Shown one piece after another: positions 1-64,000 of a DNA stretch of 64,000 nt (positions within the stretch are counted from its first letter, which is position 1; every line of letters begins with the position of its first letter). The translations under genes were made by a program, and so were the position numbers. The notes below the pieces were generated by a model, which saw nothing but the letters and a program-made list of their open reading frames with translations, had not been told where the DNA came from and did not search any database. The DNA comes from Tribonema minus (taxonomy: Eukaryota > Sar > Xanthophyceae > Tribonematales > Tribonemataceae): the NCBI GenBank assembly GCA_017506865.1, contig JAFCMP010000001.1:744001-808000 (forward strand). Direction: 5' to 3'.

Positions 1-70
1 TGTTTTTCACAATTCAATGACCCGGTTACGAAATATGGTTCTTTTTTTTTTTACCGCCGCTCCGCCGCAG

Positions 71-3000
71 CTTCTGCGCGCCTTCCTGCCGCTGCTGTCG
101 CCGGCGGAGCTCGCGCCGCTGCTGCGCGAGACCGACGCGCCGCACTCAATCGTCGCCCTGGCGGCGCCGCCGACGTTCGTGGACTGCCGCGAGGCCGCCA
201 TGAGCCTGCTGCTGGAGGCGTACGAGGGCGGCATCGGTGGTGAGCGCTGCTGCGTGCCGTACGTGTGTGTAGGGCATTGGCGCTGTAAATGCGAATGGCA
301 TGTATGTATGTGGGGTGTCGGCGGTGAGCGCTGCTGTGTGTCGTACGTGTCTGTAGGGCATTGGTGCTGAGCGCTGTTGTAATGTGAACGGCATGTATGT
401 ATATGGGTGAGCGCTGCCGTGTGTCGTACATGTCTGTAGGGCATTGGTGCTGAGCGCTGGCTGTAATGTGAACGGCATGTATGTATGTGGGGCGTGGGCG
501 GTGAGCGCTGCCGTGCTGTTGTGTATGTGTGGGGCAACAGAGCTGAGCGCTGCTGTTGAGCGCTGCCAATGTGAACGGCATGTATATATGTGAGGCGCCG
601 GCGGTGAGCGCTGCCGTGCTGTGTGTGTGTGTAGGGCTGCTGAAGCTGCCCCAGTATAAGGTGCAACACATTGCCATGTTGCTGGTTGATCTGCGTTTGC
701 TGCTAGAGTAACTGTGACAGCTGCATCGTTTTTCTTGCAATGTTGTTACTGCTTGAGTGGGGCTTTGGCGCTGAGCGTTGCCGTACACTCTATGCTCATG
801 GTTCTGTGTGCAAGCGGCGCCGCACACTTTTGCGGTGTAGGCGCCTATGTATGCCTGCAAGACATGTGGCGGCGACCGTCTCTGGACATCCTGGCGGCGT
901 AGACGCACGTCATGCATGTATGCGTGTGTGTAGGGGCATTGGTGCTGAGCGCCGCTGCTGTACATGCTAACAATGTGAGCTGCATGAATGTACATGGGAC
1001 GTTGTGTCGAGTGCCGCTGTGCATTCGGCGGCATGGACGCTTGGGTACATGCGTGCACGTTTAATCTAATGTATATGCTATAAAGCTTGCACACAGAAGT
1101 CTTTTGACTGCTGTGGATATGATGGCACTGTTTGACTCGTGGCCAATGACTGCAGCAGCGGCGACCACAGTTATTGGTGGAAGGCACTTGCGGCTAACCA
1201 TCCCTTGTCACCTAGAGCTCTACGATGTTTTGATTTGTTTCCGTATATCTTCTGTAAAATCTTCATGATGTATGTGTAATTGCCTCTAATTGACTCCCTG
1301 GTCTCCGGCATTGGCGTTTGGCGCTGAGCAGGGCAGCAGGTGGAGGGGCCCGCGCGCGAGGCCATACCATATATGCATGTGTATAAATACACATACACAT
1401 ATACATGTATGCGTAATGACCATCTGGTCTCTGGCATTGCTATTGGCGTTTGGCGCTGAGCAGGGCAGCAGGTGGAGGGGCCCGCGCGCGAGGCCATACG
1501 CCGCGCGCTCCTCAAGGGCCTGGCCGACCCTGACGACGAGGGCATGGACGCCAAAGACAATGACAAAGATGCTGAAGGTATGTACGGTATGGGTATCAGA
1601 GCAACACGTTTTGATTCACACGCAGCAGAGACAGTTGTAGCGTAACAGCTCGCTCCTCAGGGGCCTCGCTGGCCCCGATGGCGAGGGTATGGACGCAAAG
1701 GACGGACGGTGACAAAGATGCTGACAGTACTTACGGTATGGACATTGCGCGGTCACAATGTCGAATTACTCGTCAGGCAACAGCTCGCTGATTAAGGTCT
1801 AGAATCACCGTTCACCGGCTTCTGTAACCGTCGGAGCCCAAGTCTGGTACTTGGACCACATGTGTTCTGTGCCATGATGTGTGCACATGTGGCGCTCGAT
1901 GGAGGCATCACACATTAGCACCAGTCATGAACTCGATCTGCCAGGAAGACCAGGCCAGCGGGGGCTTCAACGCTTTGTGATGGCCCAGCAATTCTCACCC
2001 TTGCCTGACTGCAGTGGCCGCACTAGCACGTGCCGGACTACACTACACCGCACCAGTCCCGGCCCAATGCGATCCCATCGCATTGCGTCATCACTGCATC
2101 ACGTCCGCCCATCGCATTGCATCACCGCTGCACCAACTCGGCACTATACGATCCCATCACATTGCATCACGTCACTGCCGCCGCCATTGCGCGCGCTGCC
2201 ACTGCGCTGCGCACGCAGACGCCGCGGCAGCACCGCCGGCCGCGCGCAGGGGCATCCGCCGCCGCATGTACGACTACTGGGACGGCGGCGGTCGCCTTGG
2301 CAAAGCGCCCGCGCAGCGCATGGAGGCGCTCATGCGCGAGATGTACGACGCCGGCAACGCGGAGGCGTGGCTGGGGTGCGCGGTCTTCATGATGCTGCAG
2401 GTGCGCATGCATGGGCAGGGTGGTGCTGCGCGTGGGTAGGCATGTGTATGGGTACCATGGGACACGGCACTGTCTCGCATGCGATGCGGGGGCGTCATCC
2501 AGTTCGGAGGCGTGGCTGGGGTGCGCGGTCTTCGTGATGCTGCAGGTACGTATGCATAGATCGGGTGATGCTGCGGGTCAGTACGTAGTTCTGCACGGGT
2601 ACCACGGGACGTGTGGCACCGTCGCGCAGGCCGCCCTTCTTTGAGCCTTGCTCATTGCCGCACCCAGAGATGACGGCGGTCCTGGGCTTCACTGTCGCCG
2701 GCAGCTACGCATACAAGGGCCACTGCGCGCGGAGCGTGAGCGTGCTGCGGCGCTGCAGAAGGACGCTGGCTTTGTCGAGTGCAACTGTTGAAGTTGAGCA
2801 TCAGCCCTCTCAATGCTGGTCTTGACTCATGGCGCGCCTCCGGACCCGGGGCTGCTACTTTAGCACGGAGACACAACTTCCCCAGTAATCGCAGCTGCTG
2901 CAACATCGTGTTGCTCGCTGACCGTCTTGGGAGCGTGGAGTGTCACAACTTGACTCACAAGCTTGCAGTGTTCAGCATGGTCATGCCACATACACACACA

Positions 3001-3441
3001 CACATGCCAGGCCCTCAAAGCACCAACCAGCCATTGATGCACCAGTCTGATCCACACCAGCCCGTGCCTCACGCCTGCCCTTCCTCTGCTGCCCCCCCCT
3101 CCCCTCCCCCCCTGGTCCCCCCCAACCCCGTCCGCCGCCCGCAGCTGACCAAGACAAGCCCCGAGTACCGCGCGCTGCTCTTCGACAAGCCGCTCAGCGC
3201 GTGCGAGCACACGGCGATGAGCATCGACACTTCCGGCGCCGGCGCCGGCATGTCGCTGCTCGCGCCCAGCCCCCTCTCCCCCATGTTCTCGCTCGCGTCG
3301 CAGGCGGCGTCGCAGCCCGCTGCGCTGAGCGCTGACGCGGCGACGCTCGCGTGGGGCACGCTCGCGCTCGACGTCGCGCGGCGCGAGCGCGGCCTGCTGC
3401 GCGCGACGCAGGGCCCACGCTGGACGCAGACGCAGGCCGGC

Positions 3442-3500
<59 letters not shown>

Positions 3501-4670: not shown

Positions 4671-4707
<37 letters not shown>

Positions 4708-7700
4708 TGGCGGTGCCGCCGGCGCTCGTCGGCGGCTCCGCGCTGCGCAGCCTCAACTGCCACAGCGGCATCCTGCTGCTGGAGCAAGGGCTCATGTTGA
4801 GTGCTGCTGCGGTGGCGCCGAGCGCACGCGGGGGGCGCGGGAGGGGGCGGAAGGGGGGCGGCGGCGGCGCCGCGCCAGCGGCGGGGGCGGGGGGAGACGA
4901 CAACGCGGACTCGTGGCTGCAGTTGTCGCGGCTGTACTTTGAGCTGGGCGAGAGCGACGTGCTTGTGGGGCTGTCGGCGCGCACGAGCCGGCTGGCGCGC
5001 ACGCGCGAGGCGCTGGAGGTACTCTTGAAGTAATCTTCACTCTTGAAGTAATTTTTACTCTTGAAGTAATCTTCAAGTCAGCGCTCATCACGCCTGCTCG
5101 ATTGCAGGCCCCTCGGTGTCATGTAGGCAAGCCTTCTGGTTCAAGTTTTTGCAAGAGTCACCCGTGCTCACAGAACGTATTTGCGTCTCAGGCGAGCCCT
5201 CGCCATCAGCTTCAGTGTCGAAGTAGGTCGAGTGTCAATGTACAATCAGAGTCCAGCAGGGGAAGAAATACAGTTTTGACAAGCCGGCAGTGACCCGACC
5301 CCATGTTCATAGATGAATGACCTTATTGTGCGGACTCGCGCAGGCGGAGCTCGCGGGCGACATTGCGCGCGCCCTGGACCTCTACAACGCGCTCGCCAAC
5401 GAGCACTACGAGGCGATCGAGAGAGGGGACGAGGGCAGCGGCGCCAGCGAAGCAGAGCTGGTGAGTCTAGTGTCAATCTTCAAATGCGAGTGTGCGAGTG
5501 GCCTGGTCAAGGGTTGCGGAAACATGGGCGGTCAGGGGGCGCACGTGCTGTACTCCATGTTGACCTCACATCGGGGAGCGCTGGCGACGCGACCGTCGCC
5601 ATGACTGTTACTCGGTGCCTGTGACCACCTCCACGAGCAGCATCGGCTGCCTGCTCAGTGATGTGCGCGCTGGCGACGCCATCAAGCGACTTCGACAGCT
5701 GCGGCTTGCGACCTCACTGCCCGTCCCCTCGTCCCCCCCCTTGCCGCAGGCCACATGGGACATGCGCGTGCTGGAGTGCAACCTGCACCTCGGCCGCTGG
5801 TCCGACCTCCGCCAAGCAGCGCTCATTATGGCGGACGCCGACCCCGACGCCCCCCGCGCCTGGGAGGCCCTGTGGGGGACCCCCCCCCCAGCCCCCCCCG
5901 AGGGGGCACCAGCCCCTCCCCCCCCCGCCCCCCGCGAGGACCTGCTGCCGTACTTCGCGCGCGCGCTCGCGTGCGACGGGCGCGCGGACGCCGGCGCGGA
6001 GCTCAAGGCGGTGCTCGACGACGCGCTGAGCGCTGGCGCGACACGCGGCGCGTGGCTGCGCGAGCGCCTGCCGCTGGAGGCGGCGTGGGGGTGGGTGCGC
6101 GCAGTCGGCGGCGGCAGCGGCGGCGGCAGCGGCGGCGGCGACGCGCGCGGGCGCGCGCACCGCGCCGTCGGCGACGCCCTCGACGCGTTCCTCGCGCGCT
6201 GGGCGGGCGTGCACGCGTGCGCGACGGCGGCGCGCCGCGGGCTGCTGCGAGAGCTGCAGGTGCGTGCGCCAGCGCTCAGGCGTCGTTCGTCGAACGTTTG
6301 AATGAGAAGGTTGAGAGTTGCAACTGCTAAAGGGGGGGGGGGAGAGCCGCCGTCGGCGGCTCTTTGGTTGGGTGCGCTTGCACGATGACTTGGTGTGTGC
6401 ACGCGTGCGCGACGGCGGCGTACCGCGCGCTGCTGCACGAGCTGCAGGTGCGCGGTAGCGCTCGGGGAGTGTCCTAGGACCTTGAGGCGCCCCGAGAGAG
6501 TCGAGAAATGCGGTTGCAGGAGGATATGGGGGGGAAGGGGATTGCGCACCGCCATCGGCAAGACTCTGAGCAGTTGTGCTTGCGAAATGACCCACATTTG
6601 CGCAAGCTGCAGGTGCGCGTCTGTGCACAGGGGCCGGGCCATTCGTCTCCGCTCGCGGTTGCTGCGGGCAGCGGGACGTGGTGCTGATGTTTTGTTCGAG
6701 TTGCTCTGCGCTATTTGTTGTTAATGCGCGCCGGCCATTACCTACTCTGCCCCTAGCGCAGATCACCACGGATTGTGAGTTGAACTTCAAGCACGCACGC
6801 GCCAACCTCAGTGCTCATCGGTGGCGTGCAATCGAGATGCTCACTGACATGCTCATTCCGTATGCAAAGCCCGCTCGCAGTCCCTGCAGAAGGCCTCGAT
6901 AAAGTAGCAGACTTTCCATCTCAAGACTCTCACAGACTCCGTCTTGCAACGCCCTCGCCGGCGTCTCCGCGCAGATCACGACGGAGCTTGAGGGGTACTT
7001 GAAGTTCAATGACGCGCCCGCGAACCTCATGAAGTACTTCAAAGTGGAACAATTTCCACTCCAGGGCACTCGCTAACTCATCTTGGGTTGCCCCCGCTGA
7101 CGCCTGCGCCTCATGAAGTACTCCAAAGTAGAACGATTTCCACTCCACGGCACTCTCCAACTCATCTCGGAATGCCCCCGCCGGCGTCTCTGCGCAGATC
7201 ACGACGGAGCTCGAGGAGTACCTGAACTTCACGGACGCGCCCGCGAACCTCAGCGACGCCGCCGGCGTGCGGCGCCTGCTGCTCAAGTGGTCGCGCCAGC
7301 TGCCGTCCGCGCAGCTGGACCCGATGCCCACGTGGAACGCGCTCATCGCGCACCGCGCGCAGCGCTCCGCCGCCCTCATGGTGCGTCCACGCTCGGCGCG
7401 CCATATGGTGGCAGTGCGTGCATCGTGAAGCGCGGAGCGTCGCCATCTTGACAATTGATTCAATTGCTGCTGGGCTGCACGCGGTTATGCTCGGCGCGCG
7501 CCGCCGTCGACGCTGCGTGCATCCTAGAGCGCGGTGTGAACTTGTACTTTCTGTTTCTGCAGGGACGCACGCAGTCACAGCCGAGCGCCGTTTGACAGTG
7601 TGTGCATCGTGAGGCGCCAAGTGTAGCCGTGTTGACAGTTGTTCAATTGCTGCAGGGCCGAGAGCGGTCACCGCCGAGCGCGCTGCTGTCGTGTCGCGGC

Positions 7701-8824: not shown

Positions 8825-8867
<43 letters not shown>

Positions 8868-11800
8868 CGGTGACGCCGGCGCCGATCTGCTCGCGCGGCG
8901 CGGCTGGTGGCTGCGGCGCGCCGCTGCGATCGCCGATGACGAGGACGACAGCGCCGAGCGCGACGCGGCGCTGCGGCGCGCGTACGACAGCTACCGCGAA
9001 GCCGCCGCCGCTGCTGCTGTTGCTGCCGGCGACGGCGGCGGCTGCGCCGTGCGCGTCAACTGCGAGGTGGAGATGGCGCGGCTGTGCGATGCGCTCGCAA
9101 GCGACCGCGCAGAGGGGTTTCCGCTATTCGCCGCGGAGGCTGCTGCCGGCGACGACGGCGGCGGCCAGGTGACTGAAACCGCTTTGGTGAAGGGCGTGAG
9201 GGGAGGGCGTATATAGTGGGTGTGGGCGCGGGTATCGTGAGCGCTGATGCAGTGGTTCGTGTGCTCGGCATACGGGGTCTCGCCACTGTCTTTGGGCGCG
9301 TGCGGTGCTCTCTCGCCTCTGCAAGCTTGCACTCGTGATGAAGGGAACTCCAGTACACATCTGCAACTGCAGCCGCAGGGTCTCTGCGCTGCTCTCTGAC
9401 AATCGTGCACCTCATCCCCAGCTTGCCGAGGCTAGGGTTAAAGTGTGAGAGCGCGTTCATCACGGGAAAGTTGTGCTGCATAGCCACGTGTTTTGATGCA
9501 GCAGTGACAAAATTGCTTGGCGACAGTCCCACCCATGGCATGGCATACCACAAGCCTGTAGAGCTTATCCACAGTACCTCACACATGTTATAGTAGGGAC
9601 CTGCCTCTTCACTCAACTAGCCCGGCCACTTAACCCTCCCAGTCAGCTCCCCCCCCTGCTGAAGGCCTTAGCCATTGCCCCCGCCCCCCGCTCCTGCTAA
9701 AGGCATTGACCATTGATCCCCCCCCCCCCTCCTTGCCCCCTCGCTGCAGGCCTGCGAGGTGGTGCTGGTGCAGGAGGACCTCGCGGCGCTCGCCGTGCGC
9801 CACTACATGCGCGCGTGCGCCGCTGCCGGCAGCGGCAGCAGCAGCGCCGCCGCCGGTGCGCAGCACTCCGGCGGCGGCGGCAGCGCCGGCAGCCACATAC
9901 CGCGCACGCTGCACCTCCTCAGCGCCAGCGGCGCGCGCGTGCGCGACGCGTTTACGGACGCCGCCGCCGCCGTGCCGGAGTGGGTGTTTCTGCCGTGGGC
10001 GGGGCAGCTGATGGCGCTGCTCACGCGGCCGGAGGCGGCGGCGGCGCTGCCGGTGCTGGAGCGCGTGGCGCGGCGGTACCCGCGTGCGCTGTTCTACACG
10101 TATCAGGTCCGCGGCGCACACGCGTGGTCGGGGTGCAGGGGTGTACTTCAAGATGTGTGCATACTTGAAGTATATCAGAAACCCTTTGGTGCAGACGTCC
10201 GTGCATGTTTTCACCTGGTGGATTGTGATAGGACTGGAGCATAGTACTCGGGCGCATGTGTGTAATCTAACCCCAGCCCTGACCCCGGCACGCACTGCGG
10301 CACACAGTTGTGCACTGCGGCACATGTTCGTGCAGCGATAAAGAATCTGCGCCCGCCGCAGGTGCAGCAAGACATCATTCAAAAGCGAAACAGCCGCTGC
10401 GTGTCTCATCCACTCGCTGTGCCCATCGTGCCCATTGTGCCCTTTGTGCCCATCGTGCCCGCTGTCCACAACGCTCAGGTGACGCAGGAGTCCCTCGTCG
10501 GGCCGCCGCGGGAGCGCGCCGCGCGGCTAGGAGCGCTGCTGTCGGACGCCACCATGCTCACCTTTGTCGAGGTGAGCACTGCTGCACTGCTGCGTTAGGG
10601 ATACACTGCTACTTTTTACAATGTTCTAGATGGTACTCTGATTGCTTGTCGCGTGGCGCACGAAACAGTTTGGTACTGGTTCACTGATTTTGCTTTCTGC
10701 TATGAAGCGTGAGCGCTGCTGCGCCGCTGCGTTAGGGTTATACGCTTTATTCTGCGGTCACTGTCTACATCTTTACTCCGTAGTATGGCTACTTCACGTG
10801 GCCTTCCAACCGTTACCCTAACCCTGACCCTACCATCTGACTCTCTCTGCCACGCTTGGAAGACGAACGCGTGATTTTTTTAGCGCGTTTTATGCATGCA
10901 GCAGAAACATTCCATGATCCGCGCGATGCTGCATTGCGCATCGACATTGCACAGCTCGTGCACCCCAAACCAGACCACCCAAGCGCACCCCGGCGCTGCA
11001 CAGAATTCCATAACCTCTACCTCACGTGTTGTGCATCCATTCCGGTATTCCGCAGGCCCTCTGGTGCATGGTGCGCCCCGAGCACCGCGCTAGGGACCAC
11101 CCGCAGCGCGCCCCTATTCTACACAGGATGCCATGACATACCATATATGTTTTTCAATTCTGGTATGTATATTCCAAGCCATAGGGTGCCTCGTACGCCC
11201 CAAGCACCGCCGCAAGGACCGCCTCAAACGCTCCTTACACTGCATGATACACCGTAACCTACTGCATGTGTGATTCTATTCTGTACTGGTAGTGTATATC
11301 GCAGGCCCTGGGGTGCCCCGTGCACCCCGAGACCGCTACAAGGACCACCTGAAGCGGCCCCTGTTCTTCACTGGACGTCATAGCATACCGTATGTGTTGT
11401 TCAATACTGGTATGTATATCGCAGGCCCTGGGGTGCCTGGTGCACCCCGAGCACTGCTACAAGGACCACCTCAAACGCGCGCGGACGCTGCTCACGATAC
11501 GTTTTATCTACGTACTTCACGTACTTCCACACTGTGAATGTATATTGCAGGCCCTCGGATGCCTGGTGCACCCTGAGCACCGCTACAAGGACCACCTGAA
11601 GCGCGCGCGGACGCTGCTCGACGCCGGCCGCATCGACGACCTCCGGGCCGAGATGAAGGCGCTGCAGGCGAATTGCTTCGATTTGGACCGCCCGCGCCTC
11701 GGCACTAAGGTACGTACATACCCCACCAGTACACGTGGACTCGTCGTGTACTCGTAATAAGTTGAAAGCTGACAATGTATTCTGAATGGGGTTCAAAGCG

Positions 11801-14800
11801 GTTACAAGGTGCAAGCGAACTTCCTGGAGGTGGCCCGGTGGCTGCGGCTGTCGATGCACCGATGCAAGTGTTGAACTCGTCGTGAGTGTCGCCCAACTGA
11901 ACTTCAACTTTGAAGACACACCCCGCGCAGCGTATGCAGGCTCCCCCCCACACAGCACCACACCAAAGCGGACGCGCGCACCACGCGCCATCCCAATCCC
12001 GTCCTGAGCACCACTTCATGCGCAGCAGAGATGTGTACGCAACAGCACGCTATCGCTTCCTCATGAGCCTATCGAGCCTCAAAGGCCAGCGCAGCAGCCG
12101 CGACAGCCGCACGCAGCAGCGCTCCACACGGCGCCGCGCCGCCAACCCATTCCATCCACGGCGCCGCGCCGCCGCCCCCGATGCACAAACCCCAACACCA
12201 CACCCTACCCCCCCCTCCCCGCCATACCCCCTCGTGCGCTCCCGCCCCCCCCCCCCCGCAGATCGGCAAGTACAACCGCGACTTCGCGCGGCGGCGCGCG
12301 CGCGCGTTCGCGCGCGCCTTCGACGCGCGCTGGCTCGCGGCGCCGACCGCCAAGGCGCTGGCGGCGGCGCTCGAGGAGGCGGCGGCGTGGCCGCTGGGCG
12401 GCGGCGCGCACCCGCCGCTCAGCGACTTTTCCGAGTGGCTGGCGGAGTTCGACGCGGCGGCGCACGGCGCGCTGGAGGTGCCGGGGCAGTACGGCGGCGC
12501 GGCGCTGCGCGGGCCGCCGCGCGTGGAGGGTCACACGCGCGTCGCCGGGTGAGCTGCTGCTGTCAGGGTCAGATTCGGCGAGCCTGATGCAGCCGTAGTG
12601 TTAGGATGACGGTATGCCGGTGATGACGCATGCAAATTGTGCGCTGGAGGTGCCGGGGCATACGGGGGGGCCGCTGTGCGGGCCGCCGCGCGTGGAGGGT
12701 CACACGCGCGTTGCCGGGTGAGTGAGCTGCTGCGCACGCCGCCGGGTCTGGGGTTGGAGTCAGCGAGCCTGATGCAGCCCTAGGGTTAGGATGACGGTAT
12801 GCCGGTGATGACGCATGCAGATTGTGCGCTGGACGAGCCGGGGCAGTACGGGGTGGGCGCTGCGCGGGCCGCCGCGCGTGGAGGGTCACACGCGCGTCGC
12901 CGGGTGAGTGAGCTGCTGCGCACGCCGCCGGGTCAGGGTTGGAGTCAGCGAGTGTGATGCAGCCCTAGGGTTAGGATGACGGTATGCCGGTGATGACGCA
13001 TGCAAATTGTGCGCTGGACGAGCCGGGGCAGTATGGGGTGGGCGCTGCGCGGGCCGCCGCGCGTGGAGGGTCACACGCGCGTCGCCGGGTGAGTGAGCTG
13101 CTGCGCACGCCGCCGGGTCAGGGTTGGAGTCAGCGAGTGTGATGCAGCCCTAGGGTTAGGATGACGGTATGCCGGTGATGACGCATGCAAATTGTGCGCT
13201 GGACGAGCCGGGGCAGTACGGGGTGGGCGCTGCGCGGGCCGCCGCGCGTGGAGGGTCACACGCGCGTCGCCGGGTGAGTGAGCTGCTGCGCACGCCGCCG
13301 GGTCTGGGGTTGGAGTCAGCGAGCCTGATGCAGCCCTAGGGTTAGGATGACGGTATGCCGGTGATGACGCGTACAAATTATGCGCTGGAGGTGCCGGGGC
13401 AGTACGCAAGGCGCTGCGCGGGCCGCCGCGCGTGGAGAGCCACACGCACGGCACCGGGTGAGCTGCTGCGCCGCGCGGGGCACAGTTAAAGTTGTGCACA
13501 GCGCGATCGAGTTGCGCCTGCTGCTGGGCTACGAGCTGCATGTCTGCGTGGCGTTTGGGTGTTTGAGCGTAAACGCATGCACGTTGGAGCTGCCGGAGCA
13601 GTGCGCGATGGGGCGCTGCGGAGACCGCAAAGTATTGGATCACTGCTTCTGAAGGGAAGCTGGTGGCGGACTGATAGGGGTGACGTTGGACACGATGTCA
13701 CAACATGGACCGATGAGATGAGACGGCTCCGCCGGCTGTAGATACCATCATTGCTCCTCGGGGCTGGCGGATCGCCGGCCCGAGGTGACGCGCAAACCCT
13801 ACCCCTAAACCTACGCTTTATTCTAATTCTACTCCTGCCTCTAATTCTATACCCAGCCCTAACAAGGCGCTTACCCTCAGCTCCCCCCAAACTTGGCACC
13901 GTGGAACGACAACACCTTGGATAACGCCAACAGTTGCAAACGGTGTCAGATGGCACGGTAGGTAGGGCGCTGCGCTCGCCCTCCAAGCATCGTCCACTGC
14001 CCGATCTGCCGCGCTGTTGATCATGGCATCACTCTGCTGCTGAAGCGGTGTATGACCCATAACATCAATGCCCCCTATGCTACACCGGCCTCTCGCAATC
14101 ATCGTTCAATTCCGGCAGCATCAGCACCGTTATCGTCGTCTCTACGTGAGCACTGTCTCCCCCCCTTCAGCCTGTCCCTGGCGAGGCCGGTGCTATTGCA
14201 ATACAGGGGCTGCTGGTGATGATGCGGCGACGACAAGCGTAAAGCATGCACTGCAACGCACATGTCGCACTCAACGTCAAGTTCGCCTCCTACCGTCCTC
14301 CCCTCCCCCCCCCCCCCCCCTCTCCCCCCCCCCATCAGTTTCGACCAGGAGCTGCTCGTGATGGCGTCACTGCGCCGGCCCAAGCGCCTCACGATCCACG
14401 GCGACGACGAACGCGACGCCCCCTTCCTCGTCAAGGGCGGCGAGGACCTGCGCCTGGACGAGCGCATCGAGCAGCTGTTTGAGATCATGAACGCGGCGTT
14501 CCGCGCGGACGCCGCGTGCGCGCGCGCGCGCCTCGCCGTCAAGACGTACCAGGTACGCGCTGCATGCATGCTCCATCGCGCGCTTGGTGCTCACGACCTC
14601 AATTGACGTTTCAATTGACGTTCCGGGTTCCATGTCCACCGTCAGGCGCGCACGCGTCGCACGACTAGTTGTTGGATTTTCATGACTTGGAGTGTGTACG
14701 GGCGGCGTGCCGCGCTGCTGCGGTTTTGCGCGGATGGTGCATGCGGGGCGGTGATCGGCACGTCTGGGGTCACGAGTTCTGACGTCGCAGTCAGGATCTG

Positions 14801-35397: not shown

Positions 35398-35439
<42 letters not shown>

Positions 35440-38479: not shown

Positions 38480-38761
38480 ATGCACTCGGCGACTGTAAAT
38501 AAAGTGAGCATGTAAGGACCAGGACAGTGAATGCGGCGCCGGCCGTGGCCGGCGCCGCCACTCCATGCACCGCGACGAGAGGCGACGCCAGTGGCGCCTC
38601 GTAAGGCACGCGTCGTCTCTGTGCGTGCCCGAGTAAAATACGAAGGGAAAAACGAGCCCAATCATGACTGTCGTGCGCATTCGCTGCACGCTGCACGCCA
38701 TGAGCATGCGGCGCGCCGTACAGCGCGGCGCACAGGACCGGGCGGCACCGCTGCTGCAGGC

Positions 38762-38804
<43 letters not shown>

Positions 38805-39085
38805 TGCCGGCCGCAGCGGCGCGCTCCGCGCATCAGTGCCCGCTGACGACAGCGCGTGCCCACAAATGCATTGCGTGCACGAAAACTCGTGGTGCGACTG
38901 CTGCTGGCACAGGGTGCAGCAGCCCGGAAGTGCGCGACAGCGTGCATCTGCTGCTGCCGCTTTGCGCCGATGCTGTCGCAGGCTCCAGGGCAGCTGTGCT
39001 GCAGCTGCCGCAGCAGGGCCTGCTAAGCTCATTGACTGCAGCGCAGTTGCCCCTTCAGTGGTGCCGCCACATCCTCTCCTGACAT
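38480..39085 (-). repeat. Long dispersed repeat, copy B
   Basis: Inverse-orientation relative of 21755-22320. The segment 38490-38710 is almost identical to the other copy; 38800-39085 is more diverged but still alignable. A (CCG)n run at 38763-38804 sits where copy A has a shorter (GGC)n run. The 26-bp palindrome of copy A is present at 38533-38558 with a changed centre. Confidence 0.85.
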
Positions 39086-39319: not shown

Positions 39320-39487
39320 CCGGCAGCGGCAGCGGCAGCAGCAGCGGCAGCAGCGGCAGCGGCAGCGGCAGCGGCAGCTGTGGCGGCAGTGGCAGCGGCA
39401 GCGGCAGCGGCAGCGGCAGCGGCAGCGGCAGGGGCAGAAGCAGCGGCAGCGGCTGCGGCGGCGGCGGCGGCAGCGGCAGCGGCGGCG
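39320..39487. repeat. (CGGCAG)n-type microsatellite
   Basis: Degenerate GGCAGC repeats of about 165 bp abut the stop codon of the minus-strand gene, so they would be in its 3' untranslated region. Confidence 0.9.
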
Positions 39488-47874: not shown

Positions 47875-47909
<35 letters not shown>

Positions 47910-52452: not shown

Positions 52453-55400
52453 TCACGACATGGAATGCTGAACCGGTGACCCTGGCACCGTCGGCAGCGA
52501 CGGCGCGACGCCCGCGTGCGCGCGCGGCGGCGACGGCGAAGGCGACGCCGCCGTGACAGTTACGTCAGTTACGCAGTCGGCGACGGCGGGGCCGCGCAAC
52601 GCCGCCACCGCCGCCAGGAAGTTGGAGTGCATCTGCGTCTTGGTGAAGGTCGCGCAGAAGGCGTCGTCGTGCGAGTACAGGCACGGCAGCTCGCCGGTCG
52701 GGGCGTCGCGGTGGCGCTGCGGCCGCAGAAACAGCACAGTGGCAAGCGCGCGTTCGTGCGTGAGTGTGCACCACGGGCGGCAGCGGAAGCAGGAGAGGAC
52801 GCGGTGCAAGCGCGCGTTCGATCGTCAGCATGCCTCGTGGGCGGCAGCGGGAGCACAAAGCATGCGCACACGCGCTCGTGAGTGTGAAACATGGCAGCAT
52901 GGGCTTGCGCGCGTTCGCCAGCGCTCAACAGCCAGGTACATGGGGCGACGGAGAGGCCAGCTTTGTGGCGCGGGGCTGCTGCCGAGGCGGTGACCGAGCA
53001 TCTGGTGCCCGCTCGTCCCGGATGGCCAAGTAGCAGGGCGCGCTGGCCTGCAACGCGTGCGTACATGAGAGCGGAGCATGAGCATATGCGCTGCAGAGCT
53101 GCCACAAAGCAGTTTCGTTTCAGGTGCACGGGCAGCACGCGCGCCTCGCCTGCGCCTCCTCCGCCTCACTGCGCAGCGCGCTCTGATGCCAGCACCAAGC
53201 CTGATCGAGCACGGTTCACCTACGAAGCATCAATTACGTCTTGGTGACGGCAGTTTCGTTTCGTTGACGGCAGTTTCGTTTCAATTACGGCAGTTACGCG
53301 CGCGGCGACTCGCCTGCGCCTCCTCCGCCTCCGCCGCCTTGACGCGCGCGAACGCCGCCTCGTCGAATAGCGCGACGCGGTGCCGCCCCGCGCCGACCAC
53401 GCAGCAGCACTCTCCGCTGCCCGCGAGCAGGCTCTCAACGGCCGCGCGGAACACGCCGAGGACCGCCGCCGCGCTCGCCCCCCCCTCCCCCCACGCCCCC
53501 CCCCCCGGCGCGTCCATGTCCCCCAGGCCCGGCGCCAGCGCCTCCATGAGCGCGCCGTACGCCGCCGCCAGCGGCGCGAGCGGCGGCGGCGCGGCGGCGT
53601 CGGCGTCGGCGGCGGCGTCGGGCGCCCAGACGACGCCCGTGTCGAGGTCCGCGCGCACCGCGTCGCGCGGCAGCTCAAGCTCCGCGGCGTGCGGCGACAG
53701 CAGGCCTGCGCGCGCGCGGCATTTGGGGCGGTTCGCATGAGAGCGGGGCGCGGCGCGCTGAGCGGCGTTGCACGGCAGGCCCGCGCGCGCAGCGTTGAGT
53801 GCTCGGTGCACACTGCGCTGACTGAGCCGTTGCATGAACATGCAACGCCTGCCTGCGTTGAGGACCGCAAAAAACTTAAACATAATGCTTCAACAGCTGT
53901 GAAGCCGAACTGCGCGGCGTGCGGCGACAGCAGGCCTGCGCGCCCGTGTGCGGGGGTGGGAGGGGCATGCGGCAAGGTGCATCGGTTGAGCCATGGTTGA
54001 CCGCGGAGCGCCGGTGCTGCCCATTTCCCGAAATTTGGAGCAGGTAATGGAGATGCTACTGCTACGCCCCACGACAAAGCCCGCCTGGACTGCCGCGCAT
54101 GGTGGGCCAGCGCGCCGCAGCGTGCGGCAGCAGCGGCCGCTGTAAGAGGGCGTGTGCGGGACACGTGCAAGTCCGTGGGTCCTAACCCTAACCGCGATGC
54201 TGACACCAGCCCTGCGGCGCGCATTTTGCGCGCCACAGCCCGGCACCCAGACGAAGAAACGAAAGCTCCTGAGTGGCGCAGCAGCCAATGGCAGCGATCC
54301 TGACACGTCACCAGCACAAGCTTCCTCGACATGATGTGCGCAGACAGCAATGTCACCCACATCCGTGAGGCACGGCGCTGAGCACCGGTGCGCGCGCTCC
54401 GCGCATTTTTCACTCGCGGCGCCTGTCAGATGGCAGCAGTGCGTGCCACATGTGGCAGTGACATCGAAGCACTCTGTGACCGAAGCCCGTGCTGAGCGCT
54501 GCACATCAATTACCTAACCCTTACTGAGACATTAACCCTACCCCGACCCCTCAGGGTGCGGCGAGCGCTGTGGACACCTGAAAACCAAACCGACCCCCCT
54601 GACTGTGACCCTGAGCCGTAGCTGCAAACCCTAACACGTCATGCGCGTGCAAAGCGCAGCAAACGCACGCACCTATGAGGTACGGCGTCGGACACTGCAC
54701 GAGGTCCGGCGCCATCTTGCGCGGCAGCAGCGGCGCGTACACGTGGCACCACGCGAGCGGCCGCAGCAGCGCGCGCAGCGCCTCGCCGGCGAGCGTCAGC
54801 AGCGACGCGCGCCGCGACAGCAGCACGACCTTGCCCTCGCACAGCAGCGCCGCCACGAGCGCGCACACGTCGCGCGCGTGCAGGCAGCGCAGCAGCACGC
54901 CCATGTCGCCATCGGAGACGGGCGGCGGCGGCGGCGCGGCGGCGTCTGCAGCACCGTCGCTGCCGCCGGCGCCGCAGCTATTCTGCGGAGGCAGCGACGC
55001 GCGCTCCGCTGCCGCCGCCGCCTCGAGCCGCGGCAGCAGCTCTGCGGTGAGCGCCGCCGCGTCCATGTCTGCCCAGTAGCTCTCCGCGGCGACGCAGCGC
55101 GCCTCGATGGCGGCGCCGGCGGCGGCGTGGTACGCGCGCAGCGCGGCGCGCATCGCGCCCGCCGTCGGCGCCGCCGACAGCGCGCACACGCCGCACGGCA
55201 CAAATTTCGGCCACTCCTGTGCGGCCGCCGCCGCCGCAGCAGCAGCAGCAGCGGCAGCGGCGCCTCGCGGCGGGCTGGCCGCGTCGTCGCTCTCCACCTT
55301 CTCCTGCTGCTGCTGCGCGTCAGCCGCCAGAGCTGCAGCCGCGCCGCGCGGCGGCGAGCCTGGCGCGGGGCGCGGCGACGGCGGCGGCGACCGCTGCTGC

Positions 55401-58400
55401 TGCTGCTGCGGCAGCGGCGGGGGCGGCGGCGGCGCGTCTTTGGCGTTGCCCACGGCGGCGTCGCTGGGCGGCGGCGGCAGCGCCTCCGCCTCCGCGTCGG
55501 ACGAGCTGCCGCCGTCGCTGAAGTCGGCGTCCGCGGCGGCGGCGGCGGCGAGCGTCGCGGGCGTCGTCGCGCACGCGCGGAAGACGACGAGGCACGCGCC
55601 GTACAGCGTGTCGGTGCCGTCCTGGCCGGGCATCGCAAAGGTGAAGAGGCGCGGCGGGGGGGGGGCGTCGCCGACGCAGGGCCCCCCTGGCAAGGGGAGG
55701 CACAGTATGTAGCAAAGGGGGGGGGGGGGTTGAGAGGGGACGCAAGTGCAGCGCGGCAGATGAGATCGGTGGGGTGCACGCAGGAAGTGTCGTCCCCAAG
55801 CGGCGGCGGCAGCAGCAGCGGCTGCGCAGGAAGGAGCACGCCCCGACACTCTGCCGCAATGTGACCGGGCTGCCAGCCGCACGAGGCATTGTGAGCGCGC
55901 CGCACAAGCACTGCGCCCCGCAGCAGTGCTCAGGCAGCAGCGCTGAAGAGCGCCCCCACCCAGCGCTCAGGCAAAAGCAGCGCAATCGCAATCGGACTTG
56001 CGTGACCCGTTCTGAGCACTGCTGTGAGAGATGACCACGGTAGCGCGTCCACGCAAGCGGCGCCTTGGCAGGTTTGTGACTGGCGTCAGTGCAGTGCGCA
56101 CGTGCTCTCGAGGTGTCCTGCAACGCTCTCCCAAGGCGCGTCCTTGCGCAAGAAACATGACCCTAAGCCTGCAGCGGGCCTTCTGCCCCCATGTGTCCCC
56201 TGCTAGTGCCGCACAGGTCCCTGAAGCGCCAGCATCACGCACACAACAGCAGCTAGCGCGATGCAACGCGACGCGCTGCTGGTGCGGCGCGCTGCTGCAC
56301 ACGCAGCCCCAGCGCCGCCGCCGCGGCAGCAGCGCTCGCACGCTCTCTCACCCGTCGCCTAACCCTAACCCTAACCCTAAAGTCCCTGAAGCGCCAGCAT
56401 CACAAACACATCAGCTTAAACACAACTCAACTGGACGCACAGCTGCGCACGCGTGACAGCAGCAGCGCTCGCACACACGCTCACGCTCTCACCTGTCGCC
56501 CCCGCAGGCGGCAGGTCCGGGCACAGAAACGGCGCCGCGCCCTTTGGCGCGCGCGCCGCGGCGGCGGCCCTGAGGCTGAGCGCCGCCGCCTGCGTGATCG
56601 CGCACGACACGGCGCCGCGCGCGTCGCACTGCGCGTCGAATGCGAGGACCCAGTCCGCGGCGGCGGGCGGCGGCGGCGGCGGCGGCGCCTCCGTCACGCG
56701 GCGGCGGCCGAAGCGGCGCTGCGGCGGCGGCAGCGCGAGGTGCGCGCGGACGAGCGCGAGCTGCGCGGCGTGCGGCGCGCCGTCGACGTCGACCTGCGGC
56801 AGCGCGCCGCCGTTGGCGGCAGTCGGCGGCGGGCGCTTGTCGAGCTGCAGCGCGGGGGGCGGGGGCGGGGGGACAGCGGGGGCGTGAGTGGGTCAGAAGA
56901 CGGGTCTGGGGTTGCACATGCAGGTTGTTGCCAATGTGTTTGCGTCGACGGCACTGCTCTGTTGGCAACTGGTCGCAGCGGCGGCGCGATGCAGCGCTGC
57001 GAGTGCGCGTATGCAAGCGTACAGCGCGGGCGCCGGAACAGGCTGTGCTGCGCAGGCGCGCTCTCCCCGGGGCCGGTGCGCACGCAGAGCCGAGGCCTTT
57101 GCGCTGAGAGCGCGCCAGCAAGCACACGCTGAGTTGCCGCAGCAGCTGCGTGCTTCAAGCGATGTCGCAGCCAGGCAGGCAGGCAGCGCTCAGCGCCGCC
57201 AGCACGCACACACTGAGATCGACGCAGCAGCGGCGCGCATCGCGTGACGTCAGCGCCAAACAGCAGCAGCTCAGCGCACTCACGTGCGTCAGCGGCGGGC
57301 GGTGGCGCGAGACGTGCGGCGGCAGCGCGACGCCGCGCATGACGCGTGCCACGAGCGCGCGCGCGTCAACCTTGCGCCAGAGCTCGCCGAACGTGTCCGC
57401 GGGCGCGGTGGAGCCGAGCCGGTCCGCGCCGCCGCGCGGCAGCAGCTCTGCGCCGAGGCGCTCGCCTGTGGCGCCGCTCAGCAGGCCCGGGAAGAGCTCG
57501 AGCGCGATGTGCGCCGTGACGGCGGGCAGCGCGGCGCACGCGGCGCGGCCGAGCGCGATCTGGCGCGGCGGCGGCGGCGGCGCCGGGGGGGGGGGGGGGG
57601 GGGGGATGGGGGGGGGGTCGAGGTCAGGGGCAGCGGCGGCGGCGCGCTAGATTGCACCTGCTTCTTGATGGTAGATTATGTGTAAAGTTTGAAGTACGCG
57701 TGAAGCTGATAGATTATGTGTAAAGTTTGAAGTACGCGTGAAGCTGATCACAAAGTACCACTTGCGCACTGACAGCGCCGTCGACGGCAGGATGGCATGC
57801 GCGCACAGCGCCCGCGGCAGCAGCGCCGCGCGTATCGTCACCGCAATGCCTCGTCGTCATCAGCGCGAGCGCCGCCGTCGCCAAACCCACACCGTCCTGC
57901 ATTGATGATGCGTTGAGATGATGAGCGCTCGCGCAGCGGCGCCGTGCACCACACATGCGCACTCACCGCGCCGTCGATGGGCATGGCGGAGAGCGCGCGC
58001 GGCGCGGCCGGCAGCGCCAGCGCCGCCAGCGTCGTCGCCGCCGCTGCCGCGCCGCTGCTGCCGCTGCCGCCGCCGCCGTGTGCGCCGCCGCCGCGCGGCA
58101 GCTCCAGCGGGAAGTGCGCGTCCGGCGACAGGTGGAAGTCCCACAGGTGCACGACTGACGCCAGCAGCCGCAGGCGCGCGGATTCGACGGCGTCGTCTGC
58201 GCCTGCGTCTGCGTCTGCGTCGCCGTTGCAGTCGCGGCCTGCGGCGTGGTGCCGAGCGCTGCTGCTGCCGCTGCCCTCGAGCACCGCCAAGCAGGGGACG
58301 ATCTGCGGGGGTGAAGAAAGTTGGTCAGGGGGGTGTATTGGGGGGGGGGGGGGGGGGGATGAACTTCAAGGTGAGCACTGCCACAGAGTCACACCCTCAT

Positions 58401-61400
58401 CCCCTGCTCTGCACCTGCCATGCCTGCAGCCAGCGCCCACCAGCAGCATACCCTGCCAGGCCAGCAGCCAGTTGAGCACTGTTGCCAGTTGAGCACTGCC
58501 ACAACATCACCCCTAGCCCTGGCCCTAGCGCTCACCACGCCACAACAGTCATCTCTGCACTCACCACCAGCTCCATGTTGCCACGTCTGCAGCCAGCGCT
58601 GCTCCCTGCTGTGCACGTGTGACGCAGCGAGTTCTCCACAACTTCACAATTAACTTCAATCTGAGCACTGCCACGAAGCCCGTCCGCTCACCACCAGCTC
58701 CATCTCCTGCCACGCCTGCAGCCGGCGCTGCTCCCTGCTGTGCACGCGTGACGCAGCGAGTTCTCCACAACTCCACAACAATTTTCAACCTGAGCACTGC
58801 CACACAAAGCCCCTTCCACTCACCACCAGCTCCATGTCCTGCCACGCATGCAACCAGTGCTGCTCACCGCCGCCCAGCTAGAAGTATATCACAGACTCCA
58901 CAATGAACTTCAACAATCTGAGTACCAAGTACCCAATAACAACTTCACAATGAACTTCAACAACCTGAGCACTGCCACTCAAAGCCCTCTCCGCTCACCA
59001 CCAGCTCCATCTCCTGCCACGCCTGCAGCCAGCGCTGCTCGCCGCCATCGAGCTGCAGCAGGTGCAGCATGAGCACGTCGCGCAGCGGCGCCTCCGCCAG
59101 CAGCGCGCCGAGCGGCACCGGCACGTGCGTTGCGCTGCCGTGCAGGTGCGCAAGCATGCGGCCGTGCCACGCCGAGGCCTGCAGGAGACCACGAGCGAGC
59201 AATGACGTCTGGCATTGAGACGTGTTGCCGACATAGCATATGTAGCAGGCGCGCGTTGAGGAGCGTGCGCGGCGCAGCGGCGTGCGGAGCGGCACCGGCA
59301 CGTGCGTCGCGCTGCCGTGCAGGTGCGCGAGCATGCGGCCGCGCTGAGGCCTGCGGGGGCGCTGCGGAGTGCGCAGTCATGGTGTCACGTCCGCTGGCAG
59401 CGCTGAGCAGCGCTGCCGACATCATTATACTGTCAGTAGGTGCGCGCTGCCGTGCAGGCGCCGCAGGCCTGCGGGCGCCGCGAGAGCGCGACGACGTCTG
59501 GCGTTGACAAAGAAGGCCAACATCAGTCCATGTAGCAGGCGCGCTGCGCGAAAGGGGAGCGCGGGGTGCAGCGGCGCGTCCGACGGCGCATCGCGTCGCG
59601 CTGCCGTGCAGGTGCGCGATCCCTGCCGAGGCCCGGAGCGCCACCAGCGCGCAGTCATGATGTCGTGGCGGCCGGCAGCGCTGAGCAGCGCTGCCGACAT
59701 CACGATAATGTAGTGGCGCGCTGCCACGCGGGCGCAGCAGGCCTGGGGGCGCCGCCAACGCGCTGTAATGATGTCATACAGCGCTGAGCGATGGTGCTTG
59801 TGGCGGTGGCGCTGCGCAGCGGCGCCTCGCCAGCAGCGCCCGCTGCCTGCGATCCTACTCGTGTGTCGATGGGTGCAGCATCTACCGATATACATGTGTC
59901 TAGTGGCACAAATATACTTTGGCTATGCATGTGCGTGCTGCGCACAAGCGCCGGCACATTTCCCCCGCGCCGTGCCGTTGGTTCTGACATGGGGGTATGT
60001 ATACATGGTGCAGTCAGATGGCAGCGCTCAGGCGGTGCTTCCAGCGCGCTGCTGCTGCTAGCAGAACGGTCTCACGGCACTGGCCATTCTGTCTGTCACG
60101 CTGCCGCGCGGAGCGCTGTCGCTTGCCTATCAGTAGCTGACGTCCTTAGCGTCACGGTCGGGGGTAGGTTGGCGCGGCGGCGAGCGTCACAGTGCCAGCA
60201 GCAGCGCTTAACAATGCAGTGTACACTGTAACAGCGCGCCATGTGACTGCAGCACGCGGTGGCAGCGCGCTGCGCAGCTGCCGCGCGCCATGAGAAGCAG
60301 TGCCGCCCTGCCACGGCTGCAGCAGCAAGAGGGCGGCGCTGTCGCGGTGCCACACAATCGGCGCTGCTGCTGCTGCTGCTGGCGCTGCTGCTGCCAGCCG
60401 CGCTCCCTGCCACTGCCCTTGCCCAATGCGGTACCCGTGCACATGGTGCCGGCACCCGCGCTGCCGCGGTCACGACTCGATCGCCGTAGCTCGAGTGGCA
60501 CAACTCAACCCCTGCCAGAGCGTGCAGACACAGACCACAAACTGGCAAAGGCCACATTGACCTCTACCTGCAAACTGTACCTAGAGCAAGCGTTGTGAAC
60601 GACGCCTCACCCTGACACAGAGCGAATGCGCCGCCGGCCAGCTCGACTCTACCTGCAAACGACTGCTGTACCTACGCCGGGTTCGCGACAAATGTCTCAC
60701 CTGGAACAGAGCAAAAGCGCCGCCCGCCAGCGCCGCCTCCGCCGCGGCGACCAGCGGCTCCACCGCCGCCCACGCTTCCACCGCGTCCTCCGCCTCGCCT
60801 GCAGAGACCGCCGCCGCCGCGGACGCCGCCGCCGCCGTCGCCACGCCGCTCGGGTCCAGCTCCGTGCTCAGGTCGCGGTCGCTGCCGGGGTGGAGGTACT
60901 GCAGCAGCGGCGTGCCCCTGCGGCGCAGGCAGCGCAGCGCGAGCAGGCGTCGAGGGCAGCGGGTTAGAGCGTGAGAGCAGCTGCAGCGGGTAGCGCGCGC
61001 GGTCAACACGATGAGCGCTGCCGCAAGTGTCATTTACATGCACTCGCATGGCATGGCGACGCAAGGCATTCATTAGCGCCGCCCTGCGCGCGCACGCACT
61101 GCAAGAGCATCATCCCCTGCTGAAAACTGCCATCACGCCGCGATGCGACCTGCCCCGGGGGCGCCTCGCAACCAGCGCCCAGCGCCGAGCGCGCACTCAC
61201 CAATCCGGCGGCGGCGCGCCGCGCGCGTCGCACGCCGCGACGAGCTCGCGCAGGCGCCACGCGTCCACGAGGAAGCACGCGCGGTTGTGGTCCGCCGAGT
61301 CGCCGCCGCTCTCGGACACGCGCCGCGCGTGCGCGCGCGCCGCCGCCGCCGGGTGCACGTCGCGCAGCGGGCTCGCGATCGGGCTCAGGTGCAGCGCGCT

Positions 61401-62210: not shown

Positions 62211-62791
62211 CGCCGCTGTTCAGTCCTGCCTCTGGGAAGGTGCAAGACTTCGCTATACAACGTGGATGACGTGCTGCTGGACAAAACTGATGCAGCACGA
62301 CTTGCGGATCCAGATTGCAGCCACTCTCAACGCACGCGCTCGAGGTATCGAGGTATCTGATTTTTTTTTCTTTTTTCAACGGTTCTGGCGTTCAGATACC
62401 TACCTACCTGCCTGAAAAGAATTCACGCTTCCCTGTCACGCATTCAGGACCGTCGCTACCACGCACAGCTGGTGAATTGGAGCGAAACAGGTACGGCCGT
62501 GACTGCCCCGAGCTGCGCCTTGGCGCTCAGTGCCGGTGATTTTTGTGCCCATTTTGCTCCAGATCAATCTATCAGAGCTGGTACCTGACCTGACTGCTTT
62601 GCAGTGTGTAAGCCGGCACAGCACACATTGTGCATCTGCGCGAAGGTTAATTACTCGTATTTGGCGTATTATTCCTCTTGGCCTGATCAAACCATTGGGC
62701 ACTCCCCCGACTGCTTTATCAGATCGCATCGTCAACCGACTCAGCGAGTTCCTCGAGGCAGCAGGCAGTGCACCTGAGACAGGACAGCAAG
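62211..62791. promoter_or_regulatory. Divergent (bidirectional) promoter region, DENN gene and MBF1
   Basis: 581 bp separate the two start codons. It holds a T-rich run at 62361-62376 flanked by a perfect 10-bp inverted repeat, AGGTATCTGA at 62351-62360 and TCAGATACCT at 62392-62401. GC content is lower than in the genes. Which element is functional is unknown. Confidence 0.6.
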
Positions 62792-64000
62792 ATGAATGGG
62801 CAGGATTGGGACACGGTGACGCTGGCGAAGAACAGGGCGCCCACAACAAAGGGAGCGAAGAATGCAGCTGTAGCAACGGCGCTGCGGACAGGCACTCTGC
62901 AGACAGAGAAGCGATGGGCGGGGGGAGAGAACAAGTCGACTCATGCTCCGCACATGAACCTCAAGAAGCTGGACGAGGATACTGACAACTTAAAACGTGA
63001 GTGCTGGCTTGTCTTCAGCTACTCATTGGGGCTGCTCCTCTCATTCGGTTCTGCGACTCCCGGCAGAACAGTCCCGGAGTATTTAACGCTTACTGTTTAA
63101 AAAAGTGATCATCCATCATCATGAAAGTCAGACTTTATCATGTAGCAGATTTGCTGGTAGTTCACCAGTGCAGCAGGCTACTGCCATTTCATTCCTTAAT
63201 GTGGTTCAGCTGATGCGTCCATCCGTCTTTTCCATCAAGTTCCTGCACTTGAACTGGGTGCACGCAAGCTAGCAATCCTGTTTGTGGAAATGAAGCGTGC
63301 GTGCATCTCACTGTTGCATACCACGGTGCCTCTGGCGAGAGCGCCTGTGATACGCTGCAGTCACTGTGCTGCGGCACATTAATTCTTCAGCCTTGTCAAC
63401 CGTCAGGGCGATCATCTGTATATGGGCAAAAGTGCAGCCATGTCCCTTATGAAAAACGAATCAAAAAGATCGTTATAACATCGCGTCCGTCAGTCAGCCT
63501 GTGGACCAAAGCTCGGCGCAGCTGAATCAGCAGGCAGATAAAACTGAGTACGGGCAGTCACGTGGCTGAATTTGCCACAGCGTTTCCCCTTATACCATCT
63601 TGTTGAATTCGTGCAGTGATAGTGGACTGCGGGCATCTTCACCTCTGCATTTCTCCCTGATCAAACTACATGTTGGACTTCCTGCAGTGGCCGCGTGATG
63701 GGAGCGCAGCGCAGGCATATTTGCCGCAGCAGCTTCCGCTGATTAAGCGGTATATCGAACTTATGTGCAGCGACTGCATAGACCGAGTCTGGTGCAGGCA
63801 TTGTTGCCACAGCTTCTTCCCTGACACAACTTCATGTTGAACTTGTGCAGATGACCGCGTGGGCCGGAGCCTGTTGCAGGCATCTTTGCCACAGTATATT
63901 ATTTCTGACACAACTTCATGTCGAACTTCTGCGGACGACCGCGTGGACCGGAGCCTGGCGCAGGCATTCTTGCCACAGCCTCCCTGACGTAACTTCATGT
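62792..64000 (+). CDS. MBF1: Multiprotein bridging factor 1, first exon (partial)
   Basis: Conserved small transcriptional coactivator (EDF1 in animals) linking activators to TBP, also ribosome-associated during collisions. Only the first coding exon, 62792-62996, lies in the window: 68 codons plus one base, ending at donor GTGAGT in phase 1. It encodes the N-terminal MBF1 domain: NGQDWDTVTLAKNRAP, KRWAGGENKSTHA, KKLDEDTDNLK. The helix-turn-helix part, which makes up the second half of the protein, is not found before 64000 and should follow the window's end. The start is the first ATG of the frame matching the family. Confidence 0.9.
63540..64000 (+). repeat. ~95-bp tandem repeat in MBF1 intron 1
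   Basis: Units of TTTGCCACAG ... TGACACAACTTCATGTTGAA CTTGTGCAG ... GGACCGGAGCCTG..GCAGGCAT recur about five times to the window's edge, more alike toward the right. Because each unit has a GCCACAG acceptor-like site and similarity rises toward the right, they may be copies of the next exon's head. Confidence 0.8.

Follow-up and report, generated by a model that had tools for sequence, protein, structure and literature searches.

The window analysed here is a stretch of 64,000 nucleotides (bases 744,001–808,000 of contig C1) in the assembly of Tribonema minus (158 Mb, 554 contigs), a xanthophyte of the PX clade. It contains a PIKK gene with a kinase domain (PF00454), DNA-PKcs-like in our reading, and genes for a zeta-carotene desaturase, a JmjC/PHD protein whose PHD match falls under the Pfam cut-off, a coronin-like WD40 protein and a DENN protein, together with a sixth, short minus-strand gene model at 39–43 kb. 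In 20 of 41 introns of the window we found a tandem array spanning a splice junction, so that the edge of an exon recurs, usually in direct orientation, within its own intron. These multiplied exon–intron junctions, in the window and at other loci of the genome, are the subject of this study.

Genes were modelled with a small exon–intron hidden Markov model, self-trained on the window and on 24 stretches of 10 kb from elsewhere (304 kb in total, window plus 240 kb, from one genome), in place of an initial gene finder that over-split exons. The loci were hand-picked and uneven, with copies at 18 of 47 edges in one 50 kb stretch and at 0 of 12 in one 10 kb stretch. The PIKK model comprised 18 exons encoding 1733 residues with no stop, and the zeta-carotene desaturase model was 99% identical to the EukProt transcript-derived protein P0001. 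The coronin model aligned with three metagenome relatives across both of its array junctions with no extra sequence and a one-residue gap near one junction. For a P450 gene on contig C5, the query, from which two predicted exons resembling intronic copies were omitted, was 100% identical over 617 residues to the deposited T. minus protein P0124; one donor of this gene sits 9 nt further downstream in two transcript-derived proteins than in the model. Three gene models contain intronic copies called as exons, resulting in repeated peptides, and models that possibly count intronic copies as exons were kept in the counts below.

Exon edges were searched by comparing the outermost 60 coding bases of each exon with its own intron, where a copy was called at a local score of at least 40 and exons shorter than 60 nt and introns shorter than 200 nt were excluded. 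Across the window and the other loci, 57 of 232 splice edges had a copy in their own intron, including 32 of 115 donor edges (last 60 coding bases against the following intron) and 25 of 117 acceptor edges (first 60 coding bases against the preceding intron). When the same edges were compared with other introns, no copy was found in 690 donor and 702 acceptor swapped pairs (0/1392 together), and exon interiors compared with their own introns gave 1 of 72 and 1 of 73 (2/145). With exons of at least 100 nt only, 54 of 213 edges had a copy, and 34 of 133 outside the window. Outside the window in total, copies were found at 37 of 149 edges and in 9 of the 16 other loci with testable edges, while four 10 kb loci (L012, L016, L017 and L020) yielded no testable edge; the genome-wide occurrence proposed in the original prediction was thus supported to the extent of this sample. 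Edge copies were present in 10 of the 17 loci with testable edges, and a bootstrap over these loci placed the proportion of edges carrying copies at 14–31%.

Twelve of the 13 intervals of the window in which the original prediction had seen exon-edge copies scored at least 40. The remaining one, at 41.75–42.04 kb, is indeed a tandem array, starting 38 nt inside the intron and holding a short exon piece only, and because it is the sole named interval in the sixth gene model, the claim that all six genes are affected depends on this weak case. Edges beyond the predicted list were also positive, namely donors 262, 1577, 2400, 6259 and 53298 and acceptors 1472, 19569 and 26076. The host exon border itself was found to be multiplied, as predicted, at donor and acceptor ends of introns and on either strand, and the orientation was almost always direct; inverted copies were seen at 2 of the 115 donor edges and at none of the 117 acceptor edges. 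When one coronin exon edge was used to search the assembly, five places were returned, all within its own locus, and neither of the two DNA searches made, this one included, gave edge copies at other loci. An inverted copy of a coronin-like exon edge was observed at 45324–45441, at the far end of its direct array.

Tandem arrays were then called in 95 introns of 150–3000 nt flanked by two modelled exons, each taken with up to 150 nt of flanking exon. In these introns (92 kb), 69 arrays were detected, of which 30 spanned the donor, 22 the acceptor and 1 both, and 16 were internal; 53 of 69 were thus junction-spanning against 19.4 expected under uniform placement (9.7 at each end), and Markov-shuffled regions gave no arrays. 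Because the exon decays slowly, array calling was repeated with the exons hidden, whereupon 31 of 53 arrays reached a junction against 12.3 expected (p = 4e-8). The excess with hidden exons was seen in the window (13/21, 4.2 expected) and outside it (18/32, 8.2 expected), among arrays at least 85% identical (13/21, 4.7 expected, p = 1e-4) and among single-duplication arrays (9/19, 4.1 expected, p = 0.011). Array position was therefore not independent of gene structure, unlike that of ordinary minisatellite arrays, and the counts with visible and hidden exons both lay well above the rate of random tandem duplication, at which the original prediction would have lost its basis. In other non-coding DNA (171 kb of intergenic sequence, introns cut by the stretch ends and introns longer than 3 kb), 40 arrays were found, 5 of them in stretches modelled as intergenic; since some of the 40 adjoin exons, this is not a clean background.

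The units are head-to-tail duplications across the junction, in which segments of 62–230 bp, mostly 25–120 nt of exon plus the adjacent intron, were duplicated at about one in four of the sampled splice junctions, in many cases more than once. The periods of all 69 arrays had a median of 124 bp and a 5th–95th percentile range of 73–195 bp, and the exon part of the copies measured 36–104 nt at donors and 28–121 nt at acceptors (5th–95th percentile). The intron part of the unit was also duplicated, mostly at 75–90% identity, and in gap-tolerant alignment 18 of the 32 donor cases and 12 of the 25 acceptor cases had homology over at least 0.9 of this part. Since the intron part was duplicated as well, the units look like tandem duplications across the junction at the DNA level and not like copies of spliced RNA. 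A copy-paste of the exon edge alone was considered and dropped, as about half of the cases showed homology of the intron part over most of the unit.

Introns with junction arrays were longer than those without (median 1013 versus 662 nt, p = 0.004), consistent with the lengthening anticipated in the original prediction. The usual explanations for intron growth are transposon insertion and slippage; with junction-spanning arrays in 44 of the 95 introns and all arrays together making up 28% of the sampled intron sequence, an alternative route of intron growth becomes measurable.

On the plus strand of the window, array calling placed a donor-spanning array with a period of 84 bp at 234–1002 and an acceptor-spanning duplication with a period of 126 bp at 1298–1499, both in PIKK gene intron 263–1471. 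Donor-spanning duplications were located at 1503–1741 and 2360–2631 (both with a period of 145 bp) and at 6209–6466 (188 bp), and an acceptor-spanning array upstream of exon 7198 at 6756–7253, all four being detected by both array calling and the edge test. Array calling further placed a four-copy acceptor-spanning array upstream of exon 11551 (10973–11619), a donor-spanning array with five strong copies spaced by ∼185 bp past exon end 12548 (12469–13471), an acceptor-spanning array upstream of exon 16703 (16351–16742) and a donor-spanning array past exon end 16913 (16862–17382). Past exon end 18517 lay a donor-spanning duplication with a period of 62 bp (18501–18612), upstream of exon 19569 an acceptor-spanning duplication with a period of 129 bp (19335–19596), and past exon end 19759 a donor-spanning array (19725–19944). 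In the zeta-carotene desaturase gene, an acceptor-spanning duplication upstream of exon 26076 (25892–26116) and a donor-spanning array past exon end 26675 (26591–26912) were detected, and in the JmjC/PHD gene, a three-copy donor-spanning array past exon end 33401 (33346–33996).

On the minus strand, the array inside the donor of exon 42037–42259 mentioned above extends over 41542–41998; it was identified by array calling and by eye and was counted as internal. The coronin-like gene carries a donor-spanning array of up to seven copies past exon 46480–46697 (45628–46575) and an acceptor-spanning array upstream of exon 48012–49109 (49064–49460). In the DENN gene, donor-spanning duplications were found at 53109–53331 (period of 164 bp), 57759–58041 (197 bp) and 60562–60731 (89 bp), an acceptor-spanning duplication at 53680–53946 (230 bp), a five-copy donor-spanning array at 58359–59054 and a three-copy acceptor-spanning array at 59057–59763.

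We then asked which splice sites are used, the RNA evidence being three transcript-derived proteins (P0001, P0148 and P0177) that cover eight array junctions. The exon-side site was used at seven of these, one was mixed, and a copy was used at none. The zeta-carotene desaturase acceptor 26076 and donor 26675 were used in P0001. In the P450 gene (coordinates of the joined L021–L025 piece), both P0148 and P0177 use donor 8518, acceptor 10428 and acceptor 8372, whose array is at the score threshold, and P0177 also uses donor 11500 and acceptor 15552. Acceptor 15552, whose copies had been modelled as exons, for that reason fell outside the set of tested edges; its repeated heads are visible. At donor 15853, P0177 continues into the intron up to a stop, probably a retained intron, and the tail of P0148 is compatible with a splice from 15853 to either exon 16498 or its nearby copy, both of which share those residues. 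Two other irregular sites, a P0177 donor 43 nt downstream of 7464 and a frame-shifting join in P0148 from ∼11419 to 15740, do not lie on copies. The suggestion in the original prediction that the copies offer competing splice sites thus found no support, with no copy used at the eight array junctions and with codon positions and splice dinucleotides that look neutral (see below).

Some copies are intact enough to be called as exons with two- or three-fold repeated peptides, as at 15172–15853 and 19642–26920 of the joined L021–L025 piece and in L008, and such exon-like copies are a possible source of new protein repeats. In practice, gene finders can mistake copies for exons and write repeated peptides into their models.

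The divergence between exons and copies was informative on the history of the arrays. Exon–copy mismatch at codon positions 1, 2 and 3 was 8.4, 8.1 and 14.8% (8.0, 8.4 and 13.2% outside CpG sites), a ratio expected, from the sequences, with neutral copies and constraint on the exon alone. Between copies, the corresponding mismatch was 12.9, 12.0 and 19.2%, where the third-position excess, a figure that includes CpG sites, is as expected if a synonymously evolving exon gave rise to the copies at different times. At exon third positions with A or T, which are rare here, the copies disagreed about half the time (39/74 and 39/76) and may retain the older base. The donor dinucleotide was kept in 62 of the 72 copies covering it (0.86 versus 0.82 for flanking dinucleotides) and the acceptor dinucleotide in 38 of 45 (0.84 versus 0.79), so that neither codon positions nor splice dinucleotide retention gave any sign of selection for or against the copies.

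Divergence from the exon increased with distance on average, as the original prediction had claimed: the nearest copy differed by 8.0% and the farthest by 13.4%, and the nearest was lower at 29 of 36 edges (p = 6e-6). The rank correlation between distance and divergence had a mean of 0.56 over 23 arrays with at least three copies (18 positive, 4 negative), and in pairwise comparison the nearer copy was the more exon-like in 75 versus 34 donor pairs and 31 versus 12 acceptor pairs. Copy-to-copy distances were obtained for 26 of the 29 arrays with at least three copies, three having too little overlap. The mean distances were 0.081 between exon and first copy, 0.135 between exon and last copy, 0.168 between first and last copies and 0.185 between the last two, and neighbouring copies were thus not the most alike (0.185 versus 0.168, p = 0.17), with the array at 12.5 kb as an exception. 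Serial duplication from the working junction predicts such distances.

On balance, we consider it probable that tandem duplication recurs with the working junction as template, so that older copies are displaced inward and the introns lengthen, with junctions as favoured sites. Each event would copy the working junction, and the new copy would land between the exon and the older copies, as on a conveyor. Splicing would stay at the exon-side site, and the extra copy would become intron and decay neutrally while the intron grows. Because the exon-side site is used and the remainder is removed as intron, a duplication crossing the junction would be harmless and would leave the protein unchanged. 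Splice junctions would undergo or keep such duplications more than other non-coding DNA, perhaps via breaks or fork stalling linked to co-transcriptional splicing, and the constrained exon would keep the youngest pair alike and hence able to recombine again. The weakest step, which we infer, is the excess of initial events at junctions. A further-reaching version, in which a mutational process coupled to splicing or transcription prefers tandem duplication at junctions, acts as a main engine of intron growth and leaves the arrays as a time-ordered fossil record of the exon edge, is possible but we advance it only tentatively.

Several observations weigh against recurrent duplication at favoured junctions. 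In 9 of the 32 donor cases and 6 of the 25 acceptor cases, homology extended over less than 0.6 of the intron part of the unit, and 7 of the 17 loci with testable edges showed no edge copies. Only 9 of the 19 donor arrays and 7 of the 11 acceptor arrays (16/30) had the nearest copy as best match, the predicted decay with distance holding on average. A single burst would also give star-shaped distances because the exon is constrained, leaving only the gradient to argue for recurrence, and the middle copies of the 12.5–13.5 kb array are ∼1% apart, from which it follows that intronic copies sometimes duplicate themselves. The third-position excess between copies also includes CpG sites. The motif TGAAGT/ACTTCA was found near copy boundaries in 22 of 74 donor and 10 of 43 acceptor windows (5 and 3% in the background), an enrichment that is a lead, inflated by the repeated copies and concerning a motif common in non-coding DNA generally. 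The junction excess is moreover inferred from standing arrays, where a slow-decaying exon partner favours both detection and recombination at junctions, a bias that hiding the exon may not fully remove. Finally, the control with start and stop edges points the right way for splice-edge specificity but is small. None of the 12 stops and one of the 8 starts had a copy (raw 1/20); as an AG acceptor and then repeated exon heads are visible at the positive start edge, we read it as an acceptor and counted 0 of 19, which differs from 57 of 232 splice edges with p = 0.009, compared to p = 0.052 for the raw count and p = 0.07 for the stops alone. Three of the stops, one lying slightly upstream of the true stop codon, and two of the starts were hand-placed, and the remaining starts were unverified model calls.

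Duplications might instead arise everywhere without a hotspot, with those in exons purged, those at junctions harmless and those retaining a constrained copy staying recognisable and recombinogenic for longer. Such a process would accommodate the internal and other non-coding arrays (16 in 92 kb of intron and 40 in 171 kb) and the near absence of copies from exon interiors (2/145), and multi-copy arrays were the most junction-biased (32/36 spanning a junction versus 21/33 single duplications), as expected if a constrained exon prolongs recombination. It would also predict arrays at stop codons, seen at 0 of 12, and start and stop edges in general, which are equally safe and anchored, gave 0 of 19 (raw 1/20) in the small control above, while the junction bias persisted with the exon hidden and among arrays at least 85% identical. 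We therefore regard the absence of any hotspot as rather unlikely.

Selection for the copies as spare, competing or decoy splice sites appears improbable: intact donors (62/72) and acceptors (38/45) are indeed frequent in the copies and the gene finder called some as exons with repeated peptides in three models, but the splice sites were retained about as well as flanking dinucleotides, the copies showed no constraint at codon positions 1 and 2, and none was used in any transcript-derived protein examined. It is very improbable that a mobile or introner-like element inserts beside junctions and carries the copies along, since these match their own exon edge (0/1392 swapped pairs) and were absent from other loci in two DNA searches, even though a short element with terminal inverted repeats occurs in several introns and TGAAGT/ACTTCA is enriched near copy boundaries. 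We give equally little credence to an artefact of the assembly or gene models; the models were self-trained on the same sequence, but the copies differ from the exon by ∼8–13% on average, exceeding assembly duplicates, they occur in 10 of 17 loci, and the P450 and desaturase models match a deposited T. minus protein (617 residues) and a transcript-derived protein (99%), respectively.

The arrays resemble several known systems in part. Introners are dispersed families of related introns and likewise alter intron content at many loci, but the T. minus copies match their own exon edge and were found at no other locus in two DNA searches. Minisatellites in introns also consist of head-to-tail units of tens to hundreds of bp, whereas the T. 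minus arrays are tied to junctions and their copies are on average more similar to the exon than to the copies next to them. A route of intron gain described in PMC3443670, which cites Hellsten et al. 2011 and Gao and Lynch 2009, is the tandem genomic duplication of an exon segment containing AGGT; as described there, it shares with the present arrays a local genic duplication that includes a splice signal and can leave the coding sequence unchanged. It differs in that an exon is duplicated to make a new intron, while in T. minus an existing intron is lengthened with copies from the exon on the same side. The crossed signature of intron gain was rare: of 88 introns, one had the end of the upstream exon repeated at its 3′ end and two had the start of the downstream exon repeated at the 5′ end, and intron gain by tandem duplication is accordingly disfavoured. 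In Rogers and Bendich 2025 (PMC11782384), direct repeats of 4–30 bp shared by both intron borders are read as an insertion footprint. The location at exon–intron borders is similar, but the T. minus units hold mostly 25–120 nt of one exon edge and adjoin that edge, and long repeats were rarely common to the two borders of an intron. Among the matches listed, in a search outside which most subscription papers lay, none described a multiplication of exon edges within introns at this scale.

Tandem duplication is a known class of mutation, and what is new is its location and recurrence. If the gradient reflects age, the arrays hold older versions of the exon edge in order, so that past synonymous states could be read from one genome. 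Counted genome-wide, the contrast between splice edges and start or stop edges could show whether DNA rearrangement is provoked by splicing or transcription.

Other features of the sampled introns were also observed. TGAAGT and ACTTCA were about five times more frequent in introns than in a Markov shuffle, the hairpin ACTTC..GAAGT occurred 23 times against 0.4, and introns without arrays, too, had a higher density of TGAAGT within 150 nt of the donor. Complementary intron ends, with GAAGTT near donors and AACTTC near acceptors, were considered and set aside as their polarity was weak (TTGAAGTT 0.65 versus 0.36 per kb). A strong polarity was found for 8-mers in 100 introns, where the G run GGGGGGGG occurred 77 times in the 5′ half and once in the 3′ half and C-run 8-mers occurred 44 and 233 times, respectively, possibly reflecting paired ends or splicing enhancers. 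A family resembling miniature inverted-repeat transposable elements (∼130–170 bp, terminal inverted repeats of the GAAAACG..ATCAAAAGATC type) was found in introns and between modelled genes, with copies at 17477–17642, 1077–1240 and 39963–40092 of the window, at 30279–30445 of the joined L021–L025 piece and in L003, L004, L007 and L008; the C5 copy is flanked by GTATGT and CAG and lies beside a repeated acceptor.

The window also contains an inverted repeat of 0.5 kb, 79% identical and ∼17 kb apart (21789–22322 and 38471–39015), and short interstitial TTAGGG-type stretches in introns (15580–15642 and 31685–31835). Two short matches to the RuBisCO large subunit with internal stops, at G000:C334:714136–714324 and C112:516888–517037, are possibly pieces of plastid DNA in nuclear contigs.

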